NCBI RefSeq assembly: GCF_027625995.1 | Contig: NZ_CP115397.1 | Span: 1 to 64,000 of the forward strand | Direction of reading: 5' to 3' | DNA: 64,000 nt | Source of the DNA: Hymenobacter yonginensis | GTDB taxonomy: Bacteria > Bacteroidota > Bacteroidia > Cytophagales > Hymenobacteraceae | Shown here: one piece after another, positions 1 through 42,225 of the stretch | Layout of the letters: every line of letters starts with the position of its first letter | How positions within the stretch are numbered: position 1 is the stretch's first letter | Made by a program: the position numbers and the translations under genes | The notes under the pieces: generated by a model | Seen by the model: the letters and a program-made list of their open reading frames with translations, nothing else | Databases searched by the model: none | Told to the model about the DNA's origin: nothing

Positions 1-127
1 GATAATACAGATAATACAGATAATACAGATAATACAGATAATACGATTCTTATATCCGCTTTTTGTATTACCAGTATTGCTTGTATTATGCGTGTTACCC
101 GTGTTATTGATATTATGTATGTTATGC
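1..127. repeat. Two facing arrays of 9-bp repeats (putative partition site)
   Basis: Positions 1-45 hold five direct copies of a 9-bp unit (GATAATACA, last copy ending in G). Positions 65-127 hold seven degenerate 9-mers in the opposite orientation (for example GTATTACCA, GTGTTACCC, ATGTTATGC), all in one 9-bp register. Read on one strand the shared core is RTAAYAC. The same core forms an array directly before parA (3184-3273), so this is probably a centromere or a binding site for the ParB-like protein. The window starts inside the array, so it may extend to the left. The function is inferred. Confidence 0.65.
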
Positions 128-159
128 GTTTCAAAGCAGGGCAGGCGAAATGTATGTCT

Positions 160-195
160 GGTAACACCTGTAATATCGGTCACACGAATAACACC
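160..195. repeat. Small cluster of the 9-bp repeats
   Basis: Four consecutive 9-mers in register (GGTAACACC, TGTAATATC, GGTCACACG, AATAACACC) match the RTAAYAC core of the arrays at 1-127 and before parA. It is probably another site for the same DNA-binding protein. Confidence 0.5.
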
Positions 196-748
196 AGAAC
201 TCGCTTCCAGGGGCCCAGGTAGACCATGCCGGTAGCTTTGGGGAAGCCTGCCTATCAGTTTCAGCAGGCCACTTCAGCAGCATGATGGGGCGCCAATCGG
301 AAGTTTGTGAGATGACCTGCGTGGGGCGGCTTCGCGAGCATAAGAACGTCACCGTCGCGGCGCCAGGGTAGGCCACACCCCAGGATGCCAGGTGGCAAGG
401 CAAACAATGCCGAGTAACTGACAGCGTTGTTTCACAAGAATATATAGCTGAAAAGCAGATGCTTAAGCTAGTAAGCGCACGATAATGTTACCTGGTAACA
501 TCAATAATACCAGAGCGCCCGTCACGGCATCAGTAGGCGGGGCGGGCAGAGGATATCACAGACCGGAAACCGGCTAAACGAATGTTGGCGGCGAGCTGCG
601 CAACGTGGGAAGCAGCTTGTTTTGTGGCCTGTTAGTTTGGGGCTACCAGATGCTGTGTGGTGCAGCTGGTTTGTCGCCGGCTTTTCCCGGAGCGGCCTGG
701 GAACGATTTCGCCCGGCTGGCCCTGAAAATACCCGGTAAGGCGCTACC
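196..748. other. Non-coding stretch with one more repeat pair
   Basis: No convincing gene is seen. Positions 494-511 carry two further 9-mers (GGTAACATC, AATAATACC), preceded by an inverted half-site, so the 9-bp repeat family is spread over at least 500 bp. Short open frames here lack recognisable features. Confidence 0.4.
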
Positions 749-1285
749 CTAGCGCCTCACCGGGACCCGCAGCATGACGTCGAGCTCCTCGCCGACAGTG
801 AAGCCCAGCGCGTTGCCGTTGATGCCGAAGTCTCTGCGGTTCACCTTGAACTGGCCGGTGAACACGCCTTTGTCTCCTTGCTGGCTGAACTGAAACGGAA
901 TGGTCACTGGCTTCTTTACGCCGTGCAGGGTCAGGTCGCCGCGCACGGCATAGCCGCTGCCGACGCGGGTGAAGGCCGTCGACTGAAAATAGATTTTTGG
1001 ATAGGTCGCCACGTCGAACCAGTCTTCTCCGCGGGCATGCTTGTCTTTCAGAGAGTTTCCCGTTTTGATGGTGGCTGCGTCCACCGTCACGCGCATGGAG
1101 GCGCTGCTCAGCTCAGCCGGGTTGTAGGTGATGGTGCCCGTCAGGCCCGTGAAGGTGCCTTCAGCCCGGCTACCCGCAAACCTGATGGTGTAGTTGGGGT
1201 CGAGGTTCCAGCTGCTGACCAGCAGCCCGGCAATAGGGGCGAGCAGTAGCGCGGCTTTGGCCATCACGGGACGTAGAAGAAACAT
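749..1285 (-). CDS. YceI-family periplasmic lipid-binding-like protein
   Basis: This 178-residue protein has an N-terminal hydrophobic signal segment followed by a YceI beta-barrel pattern. It starts with WNLDPNYTIRF and continues with SSASMRVTVDAATIKTGN, a KHARGEDWFD motif, LTLHGVKKPVTIP and a final DFGINGNALGFTVGEELDV. YceI proteins are exported lipocalin-like barrels that bind isoprenoid or other amphiphilic lipids. The start at 1285 was chosen because it gives a signal peptide directly before the domain; a second ATG at 1264 is possible. The open frame runs further upstream into the tnpB element, but that part is a shadow of tnpB. The IS end lies only about 125 bp upstream, so the native promoter may have been replaced. 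Confidence 0.85.
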   Translation of the reverse strand: MFLLRPVMAKAALLLAPIAGLLVSSWNLDPNYTIRFAGSRAEGTFTGLTGTITYNPAELSSASMRVTVDAATIKTGNSLKDKHARGEDWFDVATYPKIYFQSTAFTRVGSGYAVRGDLTLHGVKKPVTIPFQFSQQGDKGVFTGQFKVNRRDFGINGNALGFTVGEELDVMLRVPVRR

Positions 1286-1394
1286 GGGCGGAGAAGGAAG
1301 GAGAAACCAGAGAAAAAAAGGACGGGACTGAAAACCCCAGGTGCCAGCAAGGCAGCAGCCGGTCGGGTAGCCCGTGCGGCAAATCGAGTGACTG

Positions 1395-1570
1395 GAAAAC
1401 GAACACCGGATTGACATCCTCTCCCGCCTAAAGGCAGGGAGATTCCCTTTGGCGCTGGATGTCCCCAGCGGAACGCAGGATATTTGCCGCAGCATTCTGG
1501 TCCCGGTTGTGTTCCGTTCCACAGGTGCTACAGCCCCACGTTCTTACCCCCAACGCGCTTAGTCCACTCG
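1395..1570 (-). ncRNA. Candidate omega (right-end) guide RNA of the tnpB element
   Basis: TnpB guide RNAs come from the 3' part of tnpB through the right end, with the guide taken from flanking DNA. Here such an RNA would read the last ~140 nt of tnpB, the hairpin at 1421-1441 and then ~16-20 nt of flank from 1410 downwards (TCCGGTGTTCGTTTTCC). The position follows from family knowledge. The 5' limit is a guess and transcription is not shown. Confidence 0.3.
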
Positions 1571-2477
1571 GACCCGTCCTTTCGGAACAGACCGAGCAAG
1601 TCACGGTGGAGAAAGATTCGTTGACTTCGAGGTACGTGATGCCGAGTCGTAGGCTCTTGTAGGAAAGCATCGTTTTGAAGTCTGCCCAACCGGCGTCTGA
1701 CACCGATTTAGCCATTGTTGTCTTTTTGAGTTTGGAACTACTCACATTGCCCACCACCAATACGTCGTACTCATTGGTCAGCAGCGTGGTTTGCTTGTGG
1801 TTCCAGTCTTTGCGCTTGTTCTTAATCTTGGCGTGAATCCGCGTTACCTGCTTTTTCTTGCGGGCACGTTGCGCCGTGGCAAGCTGCACTTCAAAGGTGC
1901 GCGTCAGGCTTTCGCGTGTGAGTTCTACACCGTCTGAGAGCGTTGCCAGCGTTTTCAACCCGAGGTCGATACCGGCTTGCTTGCCAGTTGGCGCACGTTC
2001 GGGCGTGAGGTCTTCACAGACGAAGTTCACGTACCAGCGCCCTTGCGCATCTTCGGCAAACGAGCCGAAGCGCACCTTGCCGGGCAATGGACGCGAAGAC
2101 CAGAAGCGGAACGTATGCCCGTTGTACGTTACGCTATCGGCGCTAACCTTCACGCCCACGGCTTTGAACGGTATCCAACCGAGGCTACGCTTGCGGCTAC
2201 GCCAGTTGAGTTTCGGGCGCTTGAACTGCTTGCCACACTTGGCGTATTCATCCACTACGGCTTGCACCGTTTGGCTATGCAAGCCCAGCTCTTTACCAAC
2301 GCCAGCGGTCAACTTATGCAGGTCGAAGGCAGAAAGCAGCTTGCGGCGAAACGACCACTGATAGGCATTGCGCTCGTTGCAGTAGTTCCAGATATCGTTA
2401 CACGCCCAGCCCAGCTTGCGCAGGCGAACCCGGCAAGCTGAATCTTTGAGGCGGAAACGATACGTGGTGAGTTTCAT
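1428..2477 (-). CDS. tnpB: TnpB, RNA-guided endonuclease of an IS200/IS605-type element
   Basis: This 349-residue protein has the TnpB layout: an N-terminal helical region (MKLTTYRFRLKDSACR), RuvC-I with GIDLGLKTLATLSDG, RuvC-II at VLVVGNVSSSKL, a C4 zinc finger (CSVC and CSTC) and RuvC-III with HNRDQNAAANI. Family members use an RNA made from the element's right end to cut the empty target site and so keep the element. The usual RuvC-II glutamate is a glycine here (VVGNV). A glutamate pair sits about 42-45 residues later in YLEVNESFS, where most TnpBs have a proline (VDPxxTS). This resembles the relocated glutamate described for some TnpB and Fanzor proteins, so the enzyme need not be dead. 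A -7-like TATGTTTA lies just before the ATG. Confidence 0.9.
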   Translation of the reverse strand: MKLTTYRFRLKDSACRVRLRKLGWACNDIWNYCNERNAYQWSFRRKLLSAFDLHKLTAGVGKELGLHSQTVQAVVDEYAKCGKQFKRPKLNWRSRKRSLGWIPFKAVGVKVSADSVTYNGHTFRFWSSRPLPGKVRFGSFAEDAQGRWYVNFVCEDLTPERAPTGKQAGIDLGLKTLATLSDGVELTRESLTRTFEVQLATAQRARKKKQVTRIHAKIKNKRKDWNHKQTTLLTNEYDVLVVGNVSSSKLKKTTMAKSVSDAGWADFKTMLSYKSLRLGITYLEVNESFSTVTCSVCSERTGPSGLSALGVRTWGCSTCGTEHNRDQNAAANILRSAGDIQRQRESPCL

Positions 2478-2502
2478 TTGATAAACATACGAAACAACAT
2501 AC

Positions 2503-2510
2503 TATATTTG
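2503..2510 (+). promoter_or_regulatory. Bacteroidota -7 box for the small RHH gene
   Basis: TATATTTG matches TAnnTTTG exactly and ends only 4 nt before the ATG at 2515, suggesting an almost leaderless transcript. A TTTG lies about 22 nt upstream. On the other strand TATGTTTA stands just as close to the tnpB start, giving a compact divergent promoter. Confidence 0.55.
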
Positions 2511-2514
2511 CAAC

Positions 2515-2700
2515 ATGAGCAAGCAAAAACCACCCTATCAAGTGCGTATGTCGGATGAACTCTATGCTCTTGCGCAAGCCAAAGCGAAAGCCCTTGGCAT
2601 CTCATTTGCCGCCTACGTGCGCCTGTTAATCGCCAAAGACAGCAACGATTCAGTTCACGTTTCCCATCCCCTGCCTAAAGGCGAGGGGCTTTCAACTTAG
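2515..2700 (+). CDS. Small ribbon-helix-helix protein inside the tnpB element
   Basis: This 61-residue protein begins MSKQKPPYQVRMSDELYALA, a short beta strand followed by a helix, then KALGISFAAYVRLLIAK, the second RHH helix. This is the Arc/MetJ/CopG-type DNA-binding fold. It is transcribed divergently from tnpB and lies between the element's hairpins. Its last 13 codons are encoded by the left-end hairpin (2668-2688) and the stop codon falls at the element edge. It could repress the shared promoter region or act on the ends in transposition; both are inferences. It is not a TnpA, as there is no HUH or Tyr motif. Confidence 0.6.
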   Translation: MSKQKPPYQVRMSDELYALAQAKAKALGISFAAYVRLLIAKDSNDSVHVSHPLPKGEGLST

Positions 2701-3183
2701 CGTAACCTGAGCAATGGCCGTCTGTTTGGCATAGCACCTGCCGGCGCCTCATCCGTCGCAGGAAGAGAGGGCCGGCATGCTTGCGGAGCATCTTCAGGGC
2801 AATATGTAGATCAGCCCCAGGACGGCCAGGTCGTGGAAGCGGTGGTAGGTGATGGCGTCGCGCTCATGCTTGCTACCACCCCGCCGGGCCGGATAACTGT
2901 GCCAGGAGCGAGACAAAGCGCGACAGGAGGGAGGGGCACACTGAATGCTGTGACAAAAATCGGCTTTGAACTCAAGGCCGACACGGGCAGTGAGTTCGGA
3001 GACTGCGACTGCCCCATATTTCTTGATGCACGCCATACTCTTGTGCCTTCTGCGCGGGCGCTACGAACGCCCGGACGACCCGCACTGGGTCTTCACCAAG
3101 CAGGCCTGCGCCCTCGTTACCCTCAAGACCTGCTTGCGGTTTTGCTGGAAAATCTGAAGCACGAGGTAATCTAGAGCACATAT
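2701..3183. other. Gene-poor stretch with unidentified coding relics
   Basis: No intact gene is seen. The minus frame ending at 2794 has a gene-like tail (KHERDAITYHRFHDLAVLGLI) that could be the C-terminus of a lost transposase or other protein. The plus frame ending near 3157 reads RYERPDDPHWVFTKQACALV. Neither could be assigned to a family. It looks like decayed sequence between the IS and the partition locus. Confidence 0.3.
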
Positions 3184-3273
3184 AGTAACACTAGTAACAT
3201 AAATAATACGGATAACCCGATGCGCATGAGTAACACTATATTCATGGATAACTTCGATAACCTTCGTAATATT
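3184..3273. promoter_or_regulatory. 9-bp repeat array before parA (operator/centromere)
   Basis: Ten consecutive 9-bp registers fill 3184-3273. Eight match RRTAAYNNN (AGTAACACT, AGTAACATA, AATAATACG, GATAACCCG, AGTAACACT, GATAACTTC, GATAACCTT, CGTAATATT); registers five and seven have drifted. The array ends 5 bp before the parA ATG, so a protein bound here would cover the promoter. In type Ib partition loci the RHH protein binds such arrays, both to repress the operon and to form the segregation complex. That role is inferred here. Confidence 0.65.
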
Positions 3274-3278
3274 GGCCC

Positions 3279-4022
3279 ATGGCTAAAATCATTGCACTGA
3301 GCAACCAGAAAGGGGGCGTTGGTAAAACCACTTCCACCGTGAACATCGGCGCCGGCCTGGCCCGTGCCGGCCATAAGGTGGTGCTGATTGACCTGGACCC
3401 GCAGATCAACCTGACGCGCGGCCTGCGCCTCGACCATTCCGAAAACAATATCTACGGCGCCCTGCTAGGCGAATATGCGTTCCGGGCCCAGCCGCTGCAG
3501 CCCAACCTGGCCGTGGTGCCCGGGGCCCCGGCTTTGTCGAGCTTCGACAAGGTGAAGGGTGACGAGCTGGACCGCGAGTACCTGCTCAAGGACCTGCTCA
3601 CGCCCATCCTCGACAAGTGCGACTTTATTCTGCTGGACTGCCCGCCGGCCCTGGGGCTGATTACGCTCAACGCCTACGCCTGCGCCGACTCGCTGCTGAT
3701 TCCGCTGGAGGCGCAACTCTACGCTACCGACGGCCTGGAAAAGGTGCTGGAGCTGGTCTCGCGGGTACAGCGCCGCCTCAACCCGACCCTGAAGATTGAC
3801 GGCATCTTCTTCACCCGCTTCGACGGCCGCAAGATTCTGCGGCGCGAAACGGCCGAAGCCATCCGCGAGAAATACCCCGAGCTGGTGCTGCGCAACGTCA
3901 TCCGCGAAACCATCGGGCTGGGGGAGGCCCCCCACCTGGGCCAGGACATCTTCTCCTACGCCCCCAACAGCTCCGGCGCTACCGACTACCAGCAGCTCAT
4001 TGCCGAAATCCTCACCCGCTAA
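3279..4022 (+). CDS. parA: ParA-family partition ATPase
   Basis: This 247-residue protein is a small, type Ib-sized ParA without an N-terminal HTH. The deviant Walker A motif KGGVGKTT is at residues 11-18, the A' motif at VVLIDLDPQ and the Walker B motif at FILLDCPPALG. ParA binds DNA non-specifically in its ATP form and moves plasmid copies apart when stimulated by its centromere-bound partner. The gene directly follows the 9-bp repeat array and is 12 bp upstream of the RHH partner gene, forming the usual parA-parB order. No other ParA-like gene was found in the window, so this is the likely stabilisation module of the replicon. Confidence 0.95.
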   Translation: MAKIIALSNQKGGVGKTTSTVNIGAGLARAGHKVVLIDLDPQINLTRGLRLDHSENNIYGALLGEYAFRAQPLQPNLAVVPGAPALSSFDKVKGDELDREYLLKDLLTPILDKCDFILLDCPPALGLITLNAYACADSLLIPLEAQLYATDGLEKVLELVSRVQRRLNPTLKIDGIFFTRFDGRKILRRETAEAIREKYPELVLRNVIRETIGLGEAPHLGQDIFSYAPNSSGATDYQQLIAEILTR

Positions 4023-4034
4023 CCTTCCTTCCGC

Positions 4035-4664
4035 ATGGCCAAGTCCTTCAAGCAGCTGTCCTCCGGCACCGCCCAGCCCACTAAACGCACCTCGGAAATA
4101 GACCTGCTCGACTTCCTGGAGCAGGACCGCCAGACCACCGCGGCCACCCCGGAGCCAGCCGTGGCCGCAGCACCTGCCGCCGCACCTGTTACGGATAGCT
4201 CCGGCAGCACCGCCCCGGCCAAACCCGGCCGCCGCCCGGCCGCCGCTCCAGCTGCTCCGGAAGCTGCCGCGCCTGCCCGCAAGGCCCCCGGCCGCCCGAA
4301 GGCCGTCGCGCCGGCCCGGCCGACGCCGGTTACCGAAAGTGCCGATGTTACAGATGTTACTAGTGTTACTGCTGCCACAACAGTTGCCGAAGCAGCTGTT
4401 GGCACGGCGGCGACCGGTGTGGAGGAAGCGTCCGACAGCGACGTGCGGCAGACCTTCGTGCTGAGCCGGCAGTACCTGGAGAAGCTGAAAAACTTTGTGC
4501 ACACCCAGCGCATGGGCGGCCAGTACGACTTCACCCAGAAGCAGGCCCTGCACCAGGCCCTGGACCTGCTGTTTGATAACGCCGAGATTGAGGAGCGCCC
4601 GCTGCAGATCCGGCAGAAAGAGGAAGTGCGGCGCCAGCAGATCCGCAAGGGGCGGGGCCGGTAG
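4035..4664 (+). CDS. Atypical ParB: Ala/Pro-rich linker plus ribbon-helix-helix domain
   Basis: This 209-residue protein has three parts. The first ~30 residues (MAKSFKQLSSGTAQPTKRTS) are basic and could contact ParA. Residues ~40-130 form a low-complexity linker rich in Ala, Pro, Thr and Val. The C-terminal region has an RHH pattern: strand RQTFVLS, helix RQYLEKLKNFVHTQR and helix TQKQALHQALDLLF, then a basic tail ending KGRGR. There is no classical ParB nuclease-like domain. Its position after parA and next to repeat arrays indicates a centromere-binding protein. Unlike most RHH partners, which are about 70-110 residues, it is twice as long because of the linker. The gene carries three of the 9-bp repeats within its reading frame. 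Confidence 0.75.
   Translation: MAKSFKQLSSGTAQPTKRTSEIDLLDFLEQDRQTTAATPEPAVAAAPAAAPVTDSSGSTAPAKPGRRPAAAPAAPEAAAPARKAPGRPKAVAPARPTPVTESADVTDVTSVTAATTVAEAAVGTAATGVEEASDSDVRQTFVLSRQYLEKLKNFVHTQRMGGQYDFTQKQALHQALDLLFDNAEIEERPLQIRQKEEVRRQQIRKGRGR
4344..4370. repeat. Three 9-bp repeats inside the parB-like gene
   Basis: GATGTTACA, GATGTTACT and AGTGTTACT follow one another and are the inverted form of the RTAAC core found before parA. In frame they encode Asp-Val-Thr, Asp-Val-Thr, Ser-Val-Thr in the linker. They may be an intragenic binding site or simply a coincidence of a repetitive linker. Confidence 0.45.
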
Positions 4665-5054
4665 GGGAGGGGTTTGCCTGTCTGGCCGGCCGGAGCTGTA
4701 CCGCTGTGTGGGCTGCATCCATTCAAAGTCACTGGAGTTGCCGCGGAGTCGGATTCCCATGAAGTGGATTATCCCGTAGGATTGGCTGGGAGCCGTTGAA
4801 AGCCGGCCACGAGGTCAGCAGGATTCGGCCCACCATTCCCAGGCATGTTTCGCCGGCAACGGTCAGGAGCCGGCCAGCATCGACATCATGCCCCGAAGCC
4901 GGAATTTGCCGGGCTTTTCGCCAAGCTCTGAACCGGCTCCGGTACAATGCGCTTGCCCTGACTGACCGGCATCCGTTAGCGGGAGAAGGGCAGCAGGCGA
5001 GGCAGGGCGCCACCCATGGCCCGCCCGGCGGCAGGAATTCCCTATGTTCGACAC
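4665..5054. other. Intergenic stretch, nothing recognised
   Basis: It lies between the partition operon and the TetR gene. The open frames across it have no recognisable domain and look like by-products of high GC. Confidence 0.4.
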
Positions 5055-6536: not shown

Positions 6537-8810
6537 TTAGGACGGGAGAGGGGAGAAGCCGCGCAGGCGCAGTGAGTTGGTGAGCACCGATACCGAGCTC
6601 AGGGCCATGGCCCCGGCCGCCAGCATGGGTGAAAGGAGGATGCCAAAGAAAGGATACAGCAGCCCGGCGGCAATGGGAATGCCCAGCGTGTTGTAGATAA
6701 AGGCGAAAAACAGGTTCTGCTTGATGGTGCGAATCGTCTGGCGCGACAGATCGATGGCCGTCACCACACCTTGCAGGTCGGAGCGCATCAAGGTGATGCC
6801 GGCCGCCTCCATGGCCACGTCGGTGCCGCCGCCCATGGCCAGGCCAATGTCGGCCTGCGCCAGGGCCGGCGCGTCGTTGATACCGTCGCCGACCATGGCC
6901 ACCGTCCGGCCCTCGGCTTGAAGCTCCTTCACCTTGCCAGCCTTGTCGGCAGGAAGCACCTCGGCGAAGTAACGCGCGATGCCCACCTGTTGGGCGACCT
7001 GGGCCGCGGTCTGGGGGGTGTCGCCGGTCATCATCACCACTTCCAGGCCCATGGCCTGCAGGCGTTTGATGGCGGTGGCCGAGGTTTCGCGCACGGTATC
7101 GGCTACGCCAATCACGCCGGCCGCCTGGCCCGCTACTGCCACGTAGAGCACCGTTTTGGCCTGGGCCAGCAGGGCATCGGCGGCCTGGCGCACGGCGGGA
7201 GGCAGGGAGATGCCGGCTTCTTCGAGCAGGCGGAAGTTGCCGATGAGCACGGGCTGGCTGTTTACCACCGCCTGCGCGCCTTTGCCTTCGATGGCCTGAA
7301 AACCCGCGGCCGCAATAACGCTGGCTTCCTGGGCCTCGGCGTAGCGCACCACGGCTGCGGCCAGCGGATGCTCGCTCTGCCGCTCTACTGCCGCTACAAC
7401 TTGCAGCAGCGCGCCCGCATCCTGCCCGGGGGCCGGCACGAAGTCTGTCACGGCGGGCTCCCCGCGGGTGATGGTGCCGGTTTTGTCGAGCAGGACGGTG
7501 TCTACTTGGTGGGCTTTTTCCAGCGCCTCGGCGTTGCGGATGAGCACGCCGTGCTCGGCGCCTTTGCCGGTGCTGACCATGATGGCCGTGGGCGTGGCCA
7601 AGCCCAGCGCGCAGGGACAGGCAATGATGAGCACGGCCACAAAGTTGACCAGCGCCAGCGGCAGGCGGCTTTCCACCGGGGCCAGATCAAACCAGAGCAC
7701 GAACGTGAGGATGGCAATGACGACCACCGTGGGAACGAATACGGCACTCACCTTATCGGCCAGCCGTTGGATGGGCGCGCGACTGCCCTGGGCGTCTTCC
7801 ACCAGCTTTACAATCTGAGAAAGTAGGGTGTCGGCACCTACTTTGGTGACGCGGAAGCGGAAGGAGCCGGTTTTGTTGAGCGTGGCCCCGAACACCAGGT
7901 CGCCGCCGCGCTTTTCCACCGGCAGACTTTCGCCGGTGAGCATGGCCTCGTCCACAGCCGAGTGGCCTTCCTCGATCAGGCCGTCGGTGGCGACCTTCTC
8001 GCCCGGCCGCACCAGGATGATGTCGTTCAGCTGCACCTGCTCGATGGGCACGTCCACTTCCTGGCCGCCGGGGCGCACTACGCGGGCGGTTTTGGCCTGC
8101 AAACCCATCAGAGCCTTAATGGCGGCCGAGGTCTGGGTTTTGGCCCGCAGCTCCAGTAGCTTGCCAAGCAGAATCAGGGCAATGATGGTGGCGGTGGTAT
8201 CGTAATACACCTCGGGCATGATGCCCTGGCGCGTAAACCAGCCCGGCACCACCGTGGCGGCCAGACTGTAGAGGAACGCGGCGCCGGTGCCCACGGCAAT
8301 GAGTGTATCCATGTTGGCGGCCCGGTGCCGGAAGCCGTTCCAAGCCGAGACATAGAACTCGCGGCCACTGTAGAGCAGCACCGGCAGCGTGAGCAGCAGA
8401 AGGCCGTAGTTCAGCACCTGCATGTTCATCTGCTGCATCAGCGCGGGCCAGAGCATGAGCATACTCAGCGGCATGATGAGGACGGCCAGGCCCGCCGCCA
8501 CCCAGAAGCGGCGCTTGAGCTTGCCGTAAGCCACGGCTTTCTGCTGGTCGATTTCCGCCTGCCGGTCGGCGGCCGAGGTGTCGGGGTCGCGCTCTGTTAC
8601 GCCGTAGCCGGCCTTCACTACTGCTTCTTTCAGCGTGGCCGGGCTGGCTTGCGTGGGCAGGTAGTCGATGGTGGCCTTTTCGGTGGCGAAGTTGACCACG
8701 GCCCGCTGCACGCCCGGCGTGCGGGTCAGGGACTTCTCGACAAACGACGCACAGGAGGCACAGGTCATGCCTTCGATGTCGAGGGTTTCCGTTTTGGTGG
8801 TTGGTTCCAT
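6537..8810 (-). CDS. copA: Copper-translocating P1B-type ATPase CopA
   Basis: This 757-residue protein has one N-terminal heavy-metal-associated domain (GMTCASC at residues 14-20), membrane helices, and the actuator motif TGES. It also has the membrane CPC copper site ([13 protein letters not shown]), the phosphorylation motif DKTGTIT, the SEHPLA motif of P1B pumps and the hinge [13 protein letters not shown] with a single CxxC domain fits Cu(I)/Ag(I) export from cytoplasm to periplasm. The start at 8810 ([14 protein letters not shown]) was chosen over an ATG 39 codons upstream because it sits directly before the metal domain. It heads an operon with the cupredoxin and diverges from a His/Cys-rich secreted protein gene. 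Confidence 0.97.
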
Positions 8811-40970: not shown

Positions 40971-42164
40971 TCAGGGTTTGATTAGCCACTGGATGCCCTG
41001 CGCGTCCGTTTCCTGGCGAAAGCCGGCGGAGAGCCATACCCGGGCTAGGTTCTGCTCGAAGTTCTCATCGGGAATGAGCCTGCGCTGGCGCATGGTTTCG
41101 TACATGGCGTGCACGTCGTCAAGCGTATGCCGCTCCTGCTGCGCGACGACCGGTCTGGCAGGCTTTCGCTCCGGCTCGCCCGCCTCCCCGTGGCGCAGCT
41201 GTCGCCGGTAGTCTTCCAGCAGATAGCCTTCCAGCAAAGCCTTGTACACTGCTCCTGCCAGCTTCTTCACCTTGCCGGCTGCCGCCTGGCGGCGAACATG
41301 CGCGACCACAAAATAGATGTAGCCTTCGTCGTAGTAGCCGTTTTCCAGCTGTGTTTTTATGCCGGCCAGGCTTTTGGCGGCAATGCCCGCCTCCAGCAGC
41401 GTAGCTTCCCAGCTGGTTTCCGGTGCCTGTGCCGGTGCCGGCACAGGCGCGGCGCCGGTAGGCTTAAACAGAAAGCAGATATGCGTGATTGTACGGCCCT
41501 GCTTTTCCAGCACATACGTGAAGGCCATATCGGTCTGGGCCAGTTCGCTTTGCGCCGGGTCCAGGATGCGGGCTCTGAAGTTGGTGAACCGGTCGTATTC
41601 CTCTTCCACCCCCAGGATGGTTTTCAGCTCCGCCACTGCCATCACGCGTTTGCCGAAGGCGGCATATTCGCGCAGCAGCAGGTAGACCCGGTAGGCATTG
41701 CTGCTTTTGAGCTTCAGCAGCTCCGTGAGCTGGGCTTTGGTGAAGTTTTCGCGGAGCTGCAGCAGGTAGGGCATCAGAAGATCGTTGAAGCGCGCCTCAA
41801 CCACGCCTTCGTGATGCTTGTACTCGGCAAATGCCAGCAGCGGCAGAATGGAGAAGTCGGGCTGGGTCTGGCGGCGAGCGGTGGCATCCAGCTTCTCGAT
41901 CAGCAAGGTGCGGGAAGCAAAGTGCCGGAGTGTTTTGCGAACCAGCTCGTAGGTGGAGTTGCTCGTGCTGTGGGCCATGAGCTCGCGCACCGGGATCCGG
42001 CACACCTGAAACTGCGTGTCATCCCGGCCGATGCGGCTGAGCAGCGCCAGAAACAGCCGTGACTCCGTGGTATTGAGCACGAACCGGGCATTGATCAGCG
42101 CGTTGTGCTGCACAATCAGTGGGTGTACCGGGTGGGCTGCGTTCATCGAGTCAGGCTGTTTCAT
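40971..42164 (-). CDS. repB: RepB-family (Rep_3) plasmid replication initiator
   Basis: This protein of about 397 residues has the paired winged-helix layout of iteron-binding initiators. The first domain contains HPLIVQHNALINARFVLNTT and ESRLFLALLSRIGRDDTQFQ. Then come LVRKTLRHFASRTLLIEKLD, LTELLKLKSSNAYRVYLLLR and the second domain LKTILGVEEEYDRFTNFRAR, ending with a long basic tail. Rep_3 proteins bind direct repeats as monomers to open the origin and as dimers to repress their own gene. Seven direct and two inverted iterons lie upstream. This is the best evidence that the window is plasmid DNA. The start at 42164 is preferred, but an ATG at 42146 is possible. Confidence 0.93.
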   Translation of the reverse strand: MKQPDSMNAAHPVHPLIVQHNALINARFVLNTTESRLFLALLSRIGRDDTQFQVCRIPVRELMAHSTSNSTYELVRKTLRHFASRTLLIEKLDATARRQTQPDFSILPLLAFAEYKHHEGVVEARFNDLLMPYLLQLRENFTKAQLTELLKLKSSNAYRVYLLLREYAAFGKRVMAVAELKTILGVEEEYDRFTNFRARILDPAQSELAQTDMAFTYVLEKQGRTITHICFLFKPTGAAPVPAPAQAPETSWEATLLEAGIAAKSLAGIKTQLENGYYDEGYIYFVVAHVRRQAAAGKVKKLAGAVYKALLEGYLLEDYRRQLRHGEAGEPERKPARPVVAQQERHTLDDVHAMYETMRQRRLIPDENFEQNLARVWLSAGFRQETDAQGIQWLIKP

Positions 42165-42225
42165 AGACCTAAAATACACAGCCGGGGCCTATTATGCTAC
42201 ATGTCTAAAAAAATGTAGCGGTTTA

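Follow-up and report, generated by a model that had tools for sequence, protein, structure and literature searches.

Rows of a 9-bp box before parA and inside the adjoining gene of a likely plasmid partition cassette in Hymenobacter

Introduction

Why should the same short DNA repeat stand in rows both in front of a parA gene and inside the coding sequence of the gene that follows it? The question is raised by the start of contig NZ_CP115397.1 of Hymenobacter yonginensis (assembly GCF_027625995.1). We analysed positions 1 to 64,000 of this contig, and we refer to this whole stretch as the window. Near its left end, parA (3279..4022, forward strand) encodes a 247-amino-acid Walker-type ATPase without an N-terminal DNA-binding domain, and the next gene on the same strand (4035..4664) encodes a 209-amino-acid putative centromere-binding protein, which we call the partner. 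We think it likely that these genes and the repeats form a plasmid partition cassette of a family from the Cytophagales (mostly Hymenobacter), with a centromere made up of several clusters of a 9-bp box, one of which lies inside the gene of the putative binder.

Results

Rows of boxes in the window

The box has the form RRTAAYAYN (consensus AGTAACACT) and is pseudo-palindromic (AGT...ACT). At the left edge of the window, distal array I (1..45, forward strand) consists of five exact direct boxes (GATAATACA). This is the right end of a longer array that is truncated by the window edge, because the counterpart of positions 1-126 in the nearest genome, which we call G001, has 29 exact boxes versus 11 in the window. 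Distal array II (64..126, reverse strand) has seven inverted boxes in phase, of which six are exact and one (73-81) has one mismatch, and distal array III (160..195, forward strand) has four boxes, three of them exact. Further distal boxes lie at 484..511: an inverted box at 484-492 and two direct boxes with their 7-mers at 495 and 504. Directly 5' of parA, the promoter-proximal array (3184..3273, forward strand) has ten positions in 9-bp phase (five exact boxes, three boxes with one mismatch, and two non-matching positions). Finally, the intragenic array (4344..4370, reverse strand), in the part of the partner gene that encodes a linker, has three exact inverted boxes in codon register, which read DVT-DVT-SVT in the protein. 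An initial annotation of this DNA had located these rows correctly to within one or two bases; at 494-511, it overlooked the inverted box at 484-492.

Counting both strands, there are 25 exact matches to RTAAYAY in positions 1-4400 of the window and 15 in the other 59,600 bp, where they are unclustered, with at most one per 150 bp. The initial annotation had named a similar density of boxes elsewhere as grounds for giving up a partition role; we found no such density, either in the rest of the window or in the genomes of relatives.

Boxes are enriched across relatives

A search of 120 Hymenobacter genomes for the partner gave matches in 40, and we kept 34 of these, with 36 loci. The others (G015, G025, G032, G051, G068, and G080) had only matches with E values of 5e-5 or weaker, which we judged to be low-complexity hits to the linker. 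Second partner copies in G060 and in contig C8 of G081 were not treated as separate loci, and four loci that duplicate loci of these genomes (L031-L034) were counted once. With the window, this gives 37 loci, and a reduced set has 20 non-redundant loci. In 36 of 36 relatives, parA lies directly 5' of the partner gene, and the ParA proteins are 62-100% identical. Locus L068 (contig C8 of G081) has, near 8259-8330 and 7569-7781, a second, degraded-looking par copy, which consists of a tail fragment of parA and a copy of the partner gene whose matched region is interrupted by a single TAG stop. In a sample of 390 genomes from the order, a profile of the partner family matched 20 genomes (11 of them in Hymenobacter) from 8 of 129 genera, and in a sample of 395 genomes from the phylum, it matched G001 only.

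Compared with dinucleotide shuffles, the 150 bp upstream of parA are enriched in boxes at p < 0.01 in 32 of 37 loci, with 192 boxes observed and 25.5 expected. For the linker, we kept the protein fixed and redrew its synonymous codons, with codon usage taken from parA and the remainder of the partner gene. Against this null, boxes were enriched in 32 of 37 loci (p < 0.05), with 162 observed and 32 expected (these p-values, like the upstream ones, are per locus and uncorrected, and related loci are not independent). For the window's own linker boxes, p = 0.001. We rejected chance occurrence on the basis of the density in the window and these enrichment tests.

The boxes also keep a regular step. 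Where two neighbouring boxes share a direction and are at most 63 bp apart, a multiple of 9 separates them in 356 of 376 cases (direct) and 60 of 62 cases (inverted). Neighbours in opposite directions are less strict (11 of 42 and 27 of 47). Inside the partner gene, multiples of 9 account for 102 of 105 same-direction steps and 16 of 20 opposite-direction steps, which exceeds what coding demands, because the reading frame requires only multiples of 3. Of the 37 loci, 29 have a run of at least four in-phase boxes (with at most one mismatch) upstream, and 25 have one in the linker; the window's linker run has three.

The in-gene boxes are constrained as DNA

In codon register, a direct box reads NRT-AAY-AYN, which encodes Ser, Gly, Asn, or Asp, then Asn, and then Thr or Ile, and the T that ends codon 1 is silent. 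Among linker tripeptides of the direct type, 120 of 124 carry this T, compared with 12 of 57 where these tripeptides occur in control open reading frames (ORFs). For the inverted type (xVT), the silent T is present in 19 of 21 cases, versus 5 of 51 in the controls. These controls are 249 ORFs from the same loci that have at least 200 amino acids and third-position GC above 0.55, a selection that favours C-ending codons. A milder background comes from such codons elsewhere: in the remainder of the partner gene, 460 of 902 have the T, and in parA, 432 of 1426 do. With both box types pooled, the 20 non-redundant loci have the silent T in 69 of 73 cases. If boxes are taken as the positions one step away from an exact box, whether or not they match, then the upstream consensus (AGTAACATT) and the in-gene consensus (AGTAACACT) are nearly equal, also at the silent T, whose information content at these in-gene positions is about 0.8 bit (0.7 in the non-redundant set).

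Exact in-gene boxes are only direct in 20 loci, only inverted in 4, and of both kinds in 13. On a tree of ParA and the partner's domain (weakly resolved in places), this orientation class changed at least seven times. Direct and inverted boxes specify different peptides (xNT and xVT) within the same linker, so one double-stranded box yields two peptides, as selection on DNA predicts. Overall, the in-gene boxes are kept by a DNA-level constraint: the codon tests show that a row of short boxes in the coding part of the partner gene is preserved as DNA. What the initial annotation had seen in the window, a partition locus with 9-bp repeats partly inside the partner gene, is therefore a recurrent feature that relatives keep at the DNA level.

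Arrays of boxes track the partner

Arrays of three boxes are found in 34 of the 120 Hymenobacter genomes: in 30 of the 34 genomes with the partner versus 4 of the 86 without it (Fisher test, 1e-19). One of those four, in G011, is an unrelated 9-bp microsatellite, for which a reversed control pattern also scores 17. The other arrays in genomes without the partner lie at C1:34513-34555 in G032, C54:1483-2735 in G094, and C94:2128-2152 in G091, and neither parA nor the partner was found in 18 kb of G032 or in about 3 kb around each array of G091 and G094. Perhaps these arrays are remnants, or sites that borrow the partition proteins of another plasmid.

At the 37 loci, there are 105 clusters of at least three boxes, which we placed relative to ATG-started ORFs of at least 90 amino acids: 33 precede parA, 24 are within the partner gene, and 45 are outside ORFs. 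Because the remaining three lie in doubtful ORFs (98-130 amino acids, with low third-position GC), the partner is the only convincing host gene among ORFs of this size.

The box is also present in G203, from another family (ParA identity of about 51%), where 15 direct boxes lie between parA and the partner gene and the partner gene itself has two exact inverted boxes and one near match in frame (NITSVTSIT). Among out-group loci that belong to other families of this order, a 9-bp array precedes parA in L098, and L106, L107, and L109 have repeats of about 10 bp, with a related GTATTACA core in L106 and L107. In L109, the 10-bp tandem repeat (TTTGTATTGA type) stands before a distant parA-partner pair, which suggests that the 9-bp step became one of 10 bp in another branch.

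The partner protein

The partner has a basic N-terminus, a linker, and a C-terminal domain. Over the 37 loci, both ends are conserved (M1, K3, and K6 are invariant), and the linker differs in length and sequence. Most of the linker (residues 38-127) has pLDDT below 50 in AlphaFold modelling, which is consistent with disorder. The initial annotation had described an unusually long protein with an Ala/Pro linker, which is true of the window but is restricted to a sub-branch: sizes range from 142 to 253 amino acids, and 28 of 37 partners have just 142-170.

The C-terminal pattern, (V)RQTF(V/I) followed by a helix, a G-turn, and an S/T-capped helix, looks like a ribbon-helix-helix (RHH) domain. 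Support for this fold is weak. Out-group partners match RHH_3 at 3.8e-4 (under its cut-off), Antitox_RHH at 0.041 and 0.074, an Arc-like PHROG at 3.7e-5, and a TraM chain at 0.48. All of these matches fall on the last helix, and non-RHH models match some out-group partners equally weakly (VipE, 9.7e-4). For the 37 partners themselves, there is no convincing match to Pfam or NCBIfam, and neither ParB_N nor another ParB model from these databases is among the matches listed. On this basis, we rejected the partner's identity as a type Ia ParB.

parA and its promoter region

In the window's ParA, the AAA_31 match starts at residue 2 and KGGVGKTT is near the N-terminus, which leaves no N-terminal helix-turn-helix domain. 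When compared with solved chains (phmmer), it is nearest to Soj/ParA chains (1e-50 to 6e-36 for the best, and 1e-10 for another Soj-named chain), and delta' (2e-14) and ParF (1.6e-10) are far behind the best of these.

A TAnn(T/A)TTG-like element (TAATATTG; 3267..3274, forward strand) ends 4 nt before the ATG of parA. The element is present at this spacing in 24 of 37 loci and within 30 bp in 27 of 37, versus 0.9% of random 30-mers; the strict form TAnnTTTG is present in 15 of 37. It resembles the Bacteroidetes -7 promoter box, which suggests that the parA mRNA may be leaderless.

The proposed cassette and its alternatives

We propose that the centromere comprises the clusters of boxes before parA, in the linker-coding stretch of the partner gene, and in nearby intergenic DNA. 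Dimers of the partner, as a putative RHH centromere binder, would occupy successive boxes side by side, and through its basic N-terminus the partner would activate nucleoid-bound ParA. The promoter cluster probably also represses transcription of parA and the partner gene, because the upstream row of boxes extends into the presumed promoter. With the intragenic cluster, the two-gene cassette would carry its own centromere, and the in-gene row might serve to hold centromere and binder together, to supply more binding sites, or to provide transcriptional feedback. The same letters would then appear to serve both as protein code and as a handle for the centromere. A further step, which we take only tentatively and rate as somewhat short of probable, is that the DNA array shapes the disordered linker encoded there, so that the peptide arises mostly as a by-product while the centromere evolves. 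Because a 9-bp box is three codons, boxes can be gained, lost, or reversed without losing the frame.

We infer that the partner binds the boxes, represses transcription, and segregates the plasmid, and several observations weigh against this proposal. RHH models match 0 of the 37 partners in profile searches, and two AlphaFold monomer models of the partner (from five sequences, with mean pLDDT of 57.6 and 74.0) have helices but no strand; the initial annotation's label of RHH protein is supported in part, by weak matches in distant relatives. Five loci fail the upstream test (L041, with p = 0.012, and L051, L052, L069, and L070, which have no box there), and the five loci without significant enrichment in the linker are L051, L053, L067, L068, and L069. 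Three genomes carry arrays but no partner (G032, G091, and G094), the box is missing from most of the 16 out-group loci, and G001, the nearest relative, retains just one exact in-gene box.

Other explanations of the boxes fare less well. They might be autoregulatory operators only, at the promoter and in the gene, with the true centromere elsewhere: the upstream boxes overlap the presumed promoter next to the start codon, and RHH binders double as repressors (excerpts of PMC5016525 and PMC9499535). We consider this unlikely, in that the 45 clusters outside ORFs, away from the start of parA, are many for one operator, and the repeats of pSM19035 serve both roles (excerpts of PMC9499535). It is less probable still that the boxes are a neutral 9-bp satellite, spread by slippage and tolerated without function in a disordered linker. 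The almost perfect long array of G001, where most in-gene boxes are lost, would fit such a satellite, as would the microsatellite in G011 and the arrays in three genomes that lack the partner. However, many arrays consist of diverged copies in which the core is kept far better than position 9, the silent T is retained, and the arrays track the partner, whose gene is their sole convincing ORF host.

We give very little credence to two other ideas. If the linker repeats had been selected as an Asn/Thr-rich peptide spacer that merely resembles the DNA boxes, then we would not expect codon 1 to end in T so much more often than in control ORFs or the rest of the partner gene, xNT and xVT to swap with the orientation of the box, or the step to be 9 bp and not 3. 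One reading frame does hold nearly all of the in-gene boxes, so some constraint on the peptide is possible, but we rejected selection on the peptide only, on the basis of the synonymous-codon null and the counts of silent T. Nor do the repeats behave like iterons for a Rep_3 replication initiator, an idea prompted by two annotated plasmids with Rep_3 genes close to the par locus and by Rep_3 genes within 5 kb of it in over a dozen of the relatives listed. Of the 120 genomes, 108 have Rep_3 and just 34 have three-box arrays. Furthermore, arrays are found in 2 of the 74 genomes that have Rep_3 without the partner, versus 30 of 34 with the partner, and the boxes are located before parA and within the partner gene. 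The arrays follow the partner and not Rep_3, and we rejected this candidate.

Plasmid origin and neighbouring features

The window is plasmid DNA, because it encodes a Rep_3 initiator (40971-42179) and a resolvase and because the loci of four relatives come from plasmid records. About 46 kb of its 64 kb aligns to the compared stretch of a 4.87-Mb contig of G001, mostly at 88-96% identity (83% for one 166-bp piece), and this counterpart is probably an integrated plasmid. Given the size of that contig, we considered a chromosomal centromere. More likely, the contig includes an integrated plasmid or an assembly join, because dnaA (3.05 Mb) and the ParB_N gene (3.23 Mb) are distant and three Rep_3 genes (4.68, 4.726, and 4.738 Mb) surround the locus. 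Each of five genomes that we checked has one ParB_N gene, which is separate from the locus.

In G001, a Rep_3 gene lies just 3' of the partner gene, and the window has a short unaligned stretch there (4666-4896). The window thus appears to have lost the initiator gene that adjoined the partner. Also in G001, at about 4736118-4736286 of C1, the 9-bp box is repeated in almost perfect tandem, and the in-gene array there has decayed to a single exact box; it is possible that centromere function was handed over between clusters in this genome.

An IS605/TnpB-type insertion (about 1408-2705 of the window, with OrfB_IS605 and Cas12f1-like TNB domains) now sits between the distal arrays and parA. It includes a NikA-like ORF of 61 amino acids (2515-2700), and G001 has another copy of the insertion at C1:4659841, with 99% identity.

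Discussion

How does this locus relate to known partition systems? Among type Ib systems, delta/omega/parS of pSM19035 is similar in having short non-palindromic repeats, both direct and inverted, in several clusters over the promoters of the system. Its binder is an RHH protein, the contiguity of the repeats matters, and full activation of ParA takes four or more contiguous repeats (excerpts of PMC9499535). The repeats differ, with 7-bp heptads (WATCACW) in pSM19035 versus 9-bp boxes (AGTAACACT) at a 9-bp step here, and the ParA of the window is nearer to Soj chains than to delta. Also, the excerpts of PMC9499535 describe no array in the binder's gene, in contrast to the array in the partner gene here.

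Two other type Ib systems, ParF/ParG/parH of TP228 and ParA/ParB of pCXC100, have a small RHH binder with a flexible N-terminus and repeats before the operon, and the centromere of pCXC100 has direct repeats only (excerpts of PMC5016525). Basic N-termini of other partition binders stimulate ParA (excerpts of PMC5016525 and PMC9499535). The present locus differs from TP228 and pCXC100 in the sequence of its repeats; no similarity to their binders was detected, and ParF scores far below the best Soj chains. The repeats of pCXC100 may also be about 9 bp.

Centromere sites within the coding sequence of the binder are known from Streptomyces, in ParA/ParT/parS of SCP2 and parS1 of SCP1 (excerpts of PMC12260392 and PMC13245405). 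According to the same excerpts, the site in SCP2 is a single 18-bp inverted repeat for the clamp-type ParT, and in SCP1 it is a parS site in parB1. Here, instead, we see an array of short boxes, in codon register, in a disordered linker. Chromosomal Soj/Spo0J (type Ia) is similar in that its Soj-type chains are the nearest to this ParA, and it differs in that the partner has no ParB_N match. The initial annotation had suggested a type Ib-like centromere family. The layout agrees with this, as the ParA lacks an N-terminal helix-turn-helix and short direct and inverted repeats, with a putative centromere role, lie upstream of the par operon, but the ParA itself is nearest to Soj/ParA chains, with ParF and delta well behind.

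Short-repeat centromeres with RHH binders (excerpts of PMC5016525 and PMC9499535) and single centromere sites in binder genes (excerpts of PMC12260392 and PMC13245405) were thus already known. In a limited search of the open-licence literature, we found no publication on the partner family or on an in-frame array in a binder's linker, and to the extent of that search, the initial annotation's suggestion that the family may be undescribed holds.

The locus offers a natural example, resolved to single codons, of coding sequence in which a DNA site is under constraint. The linker of the presumed binder harbours a likely plasmid centromere array, which is kept in frame across the genus Hymenobacter and in one locus of another family. 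If the linker is indeed shaped by the array that it encodes, then the binder carries its own array, which would make the cassette self-contained and transferable, and direct feedback on the partner's own transcription would be possible. More broadly, arrays of these boxes may predict plasmid incompatibility groups.

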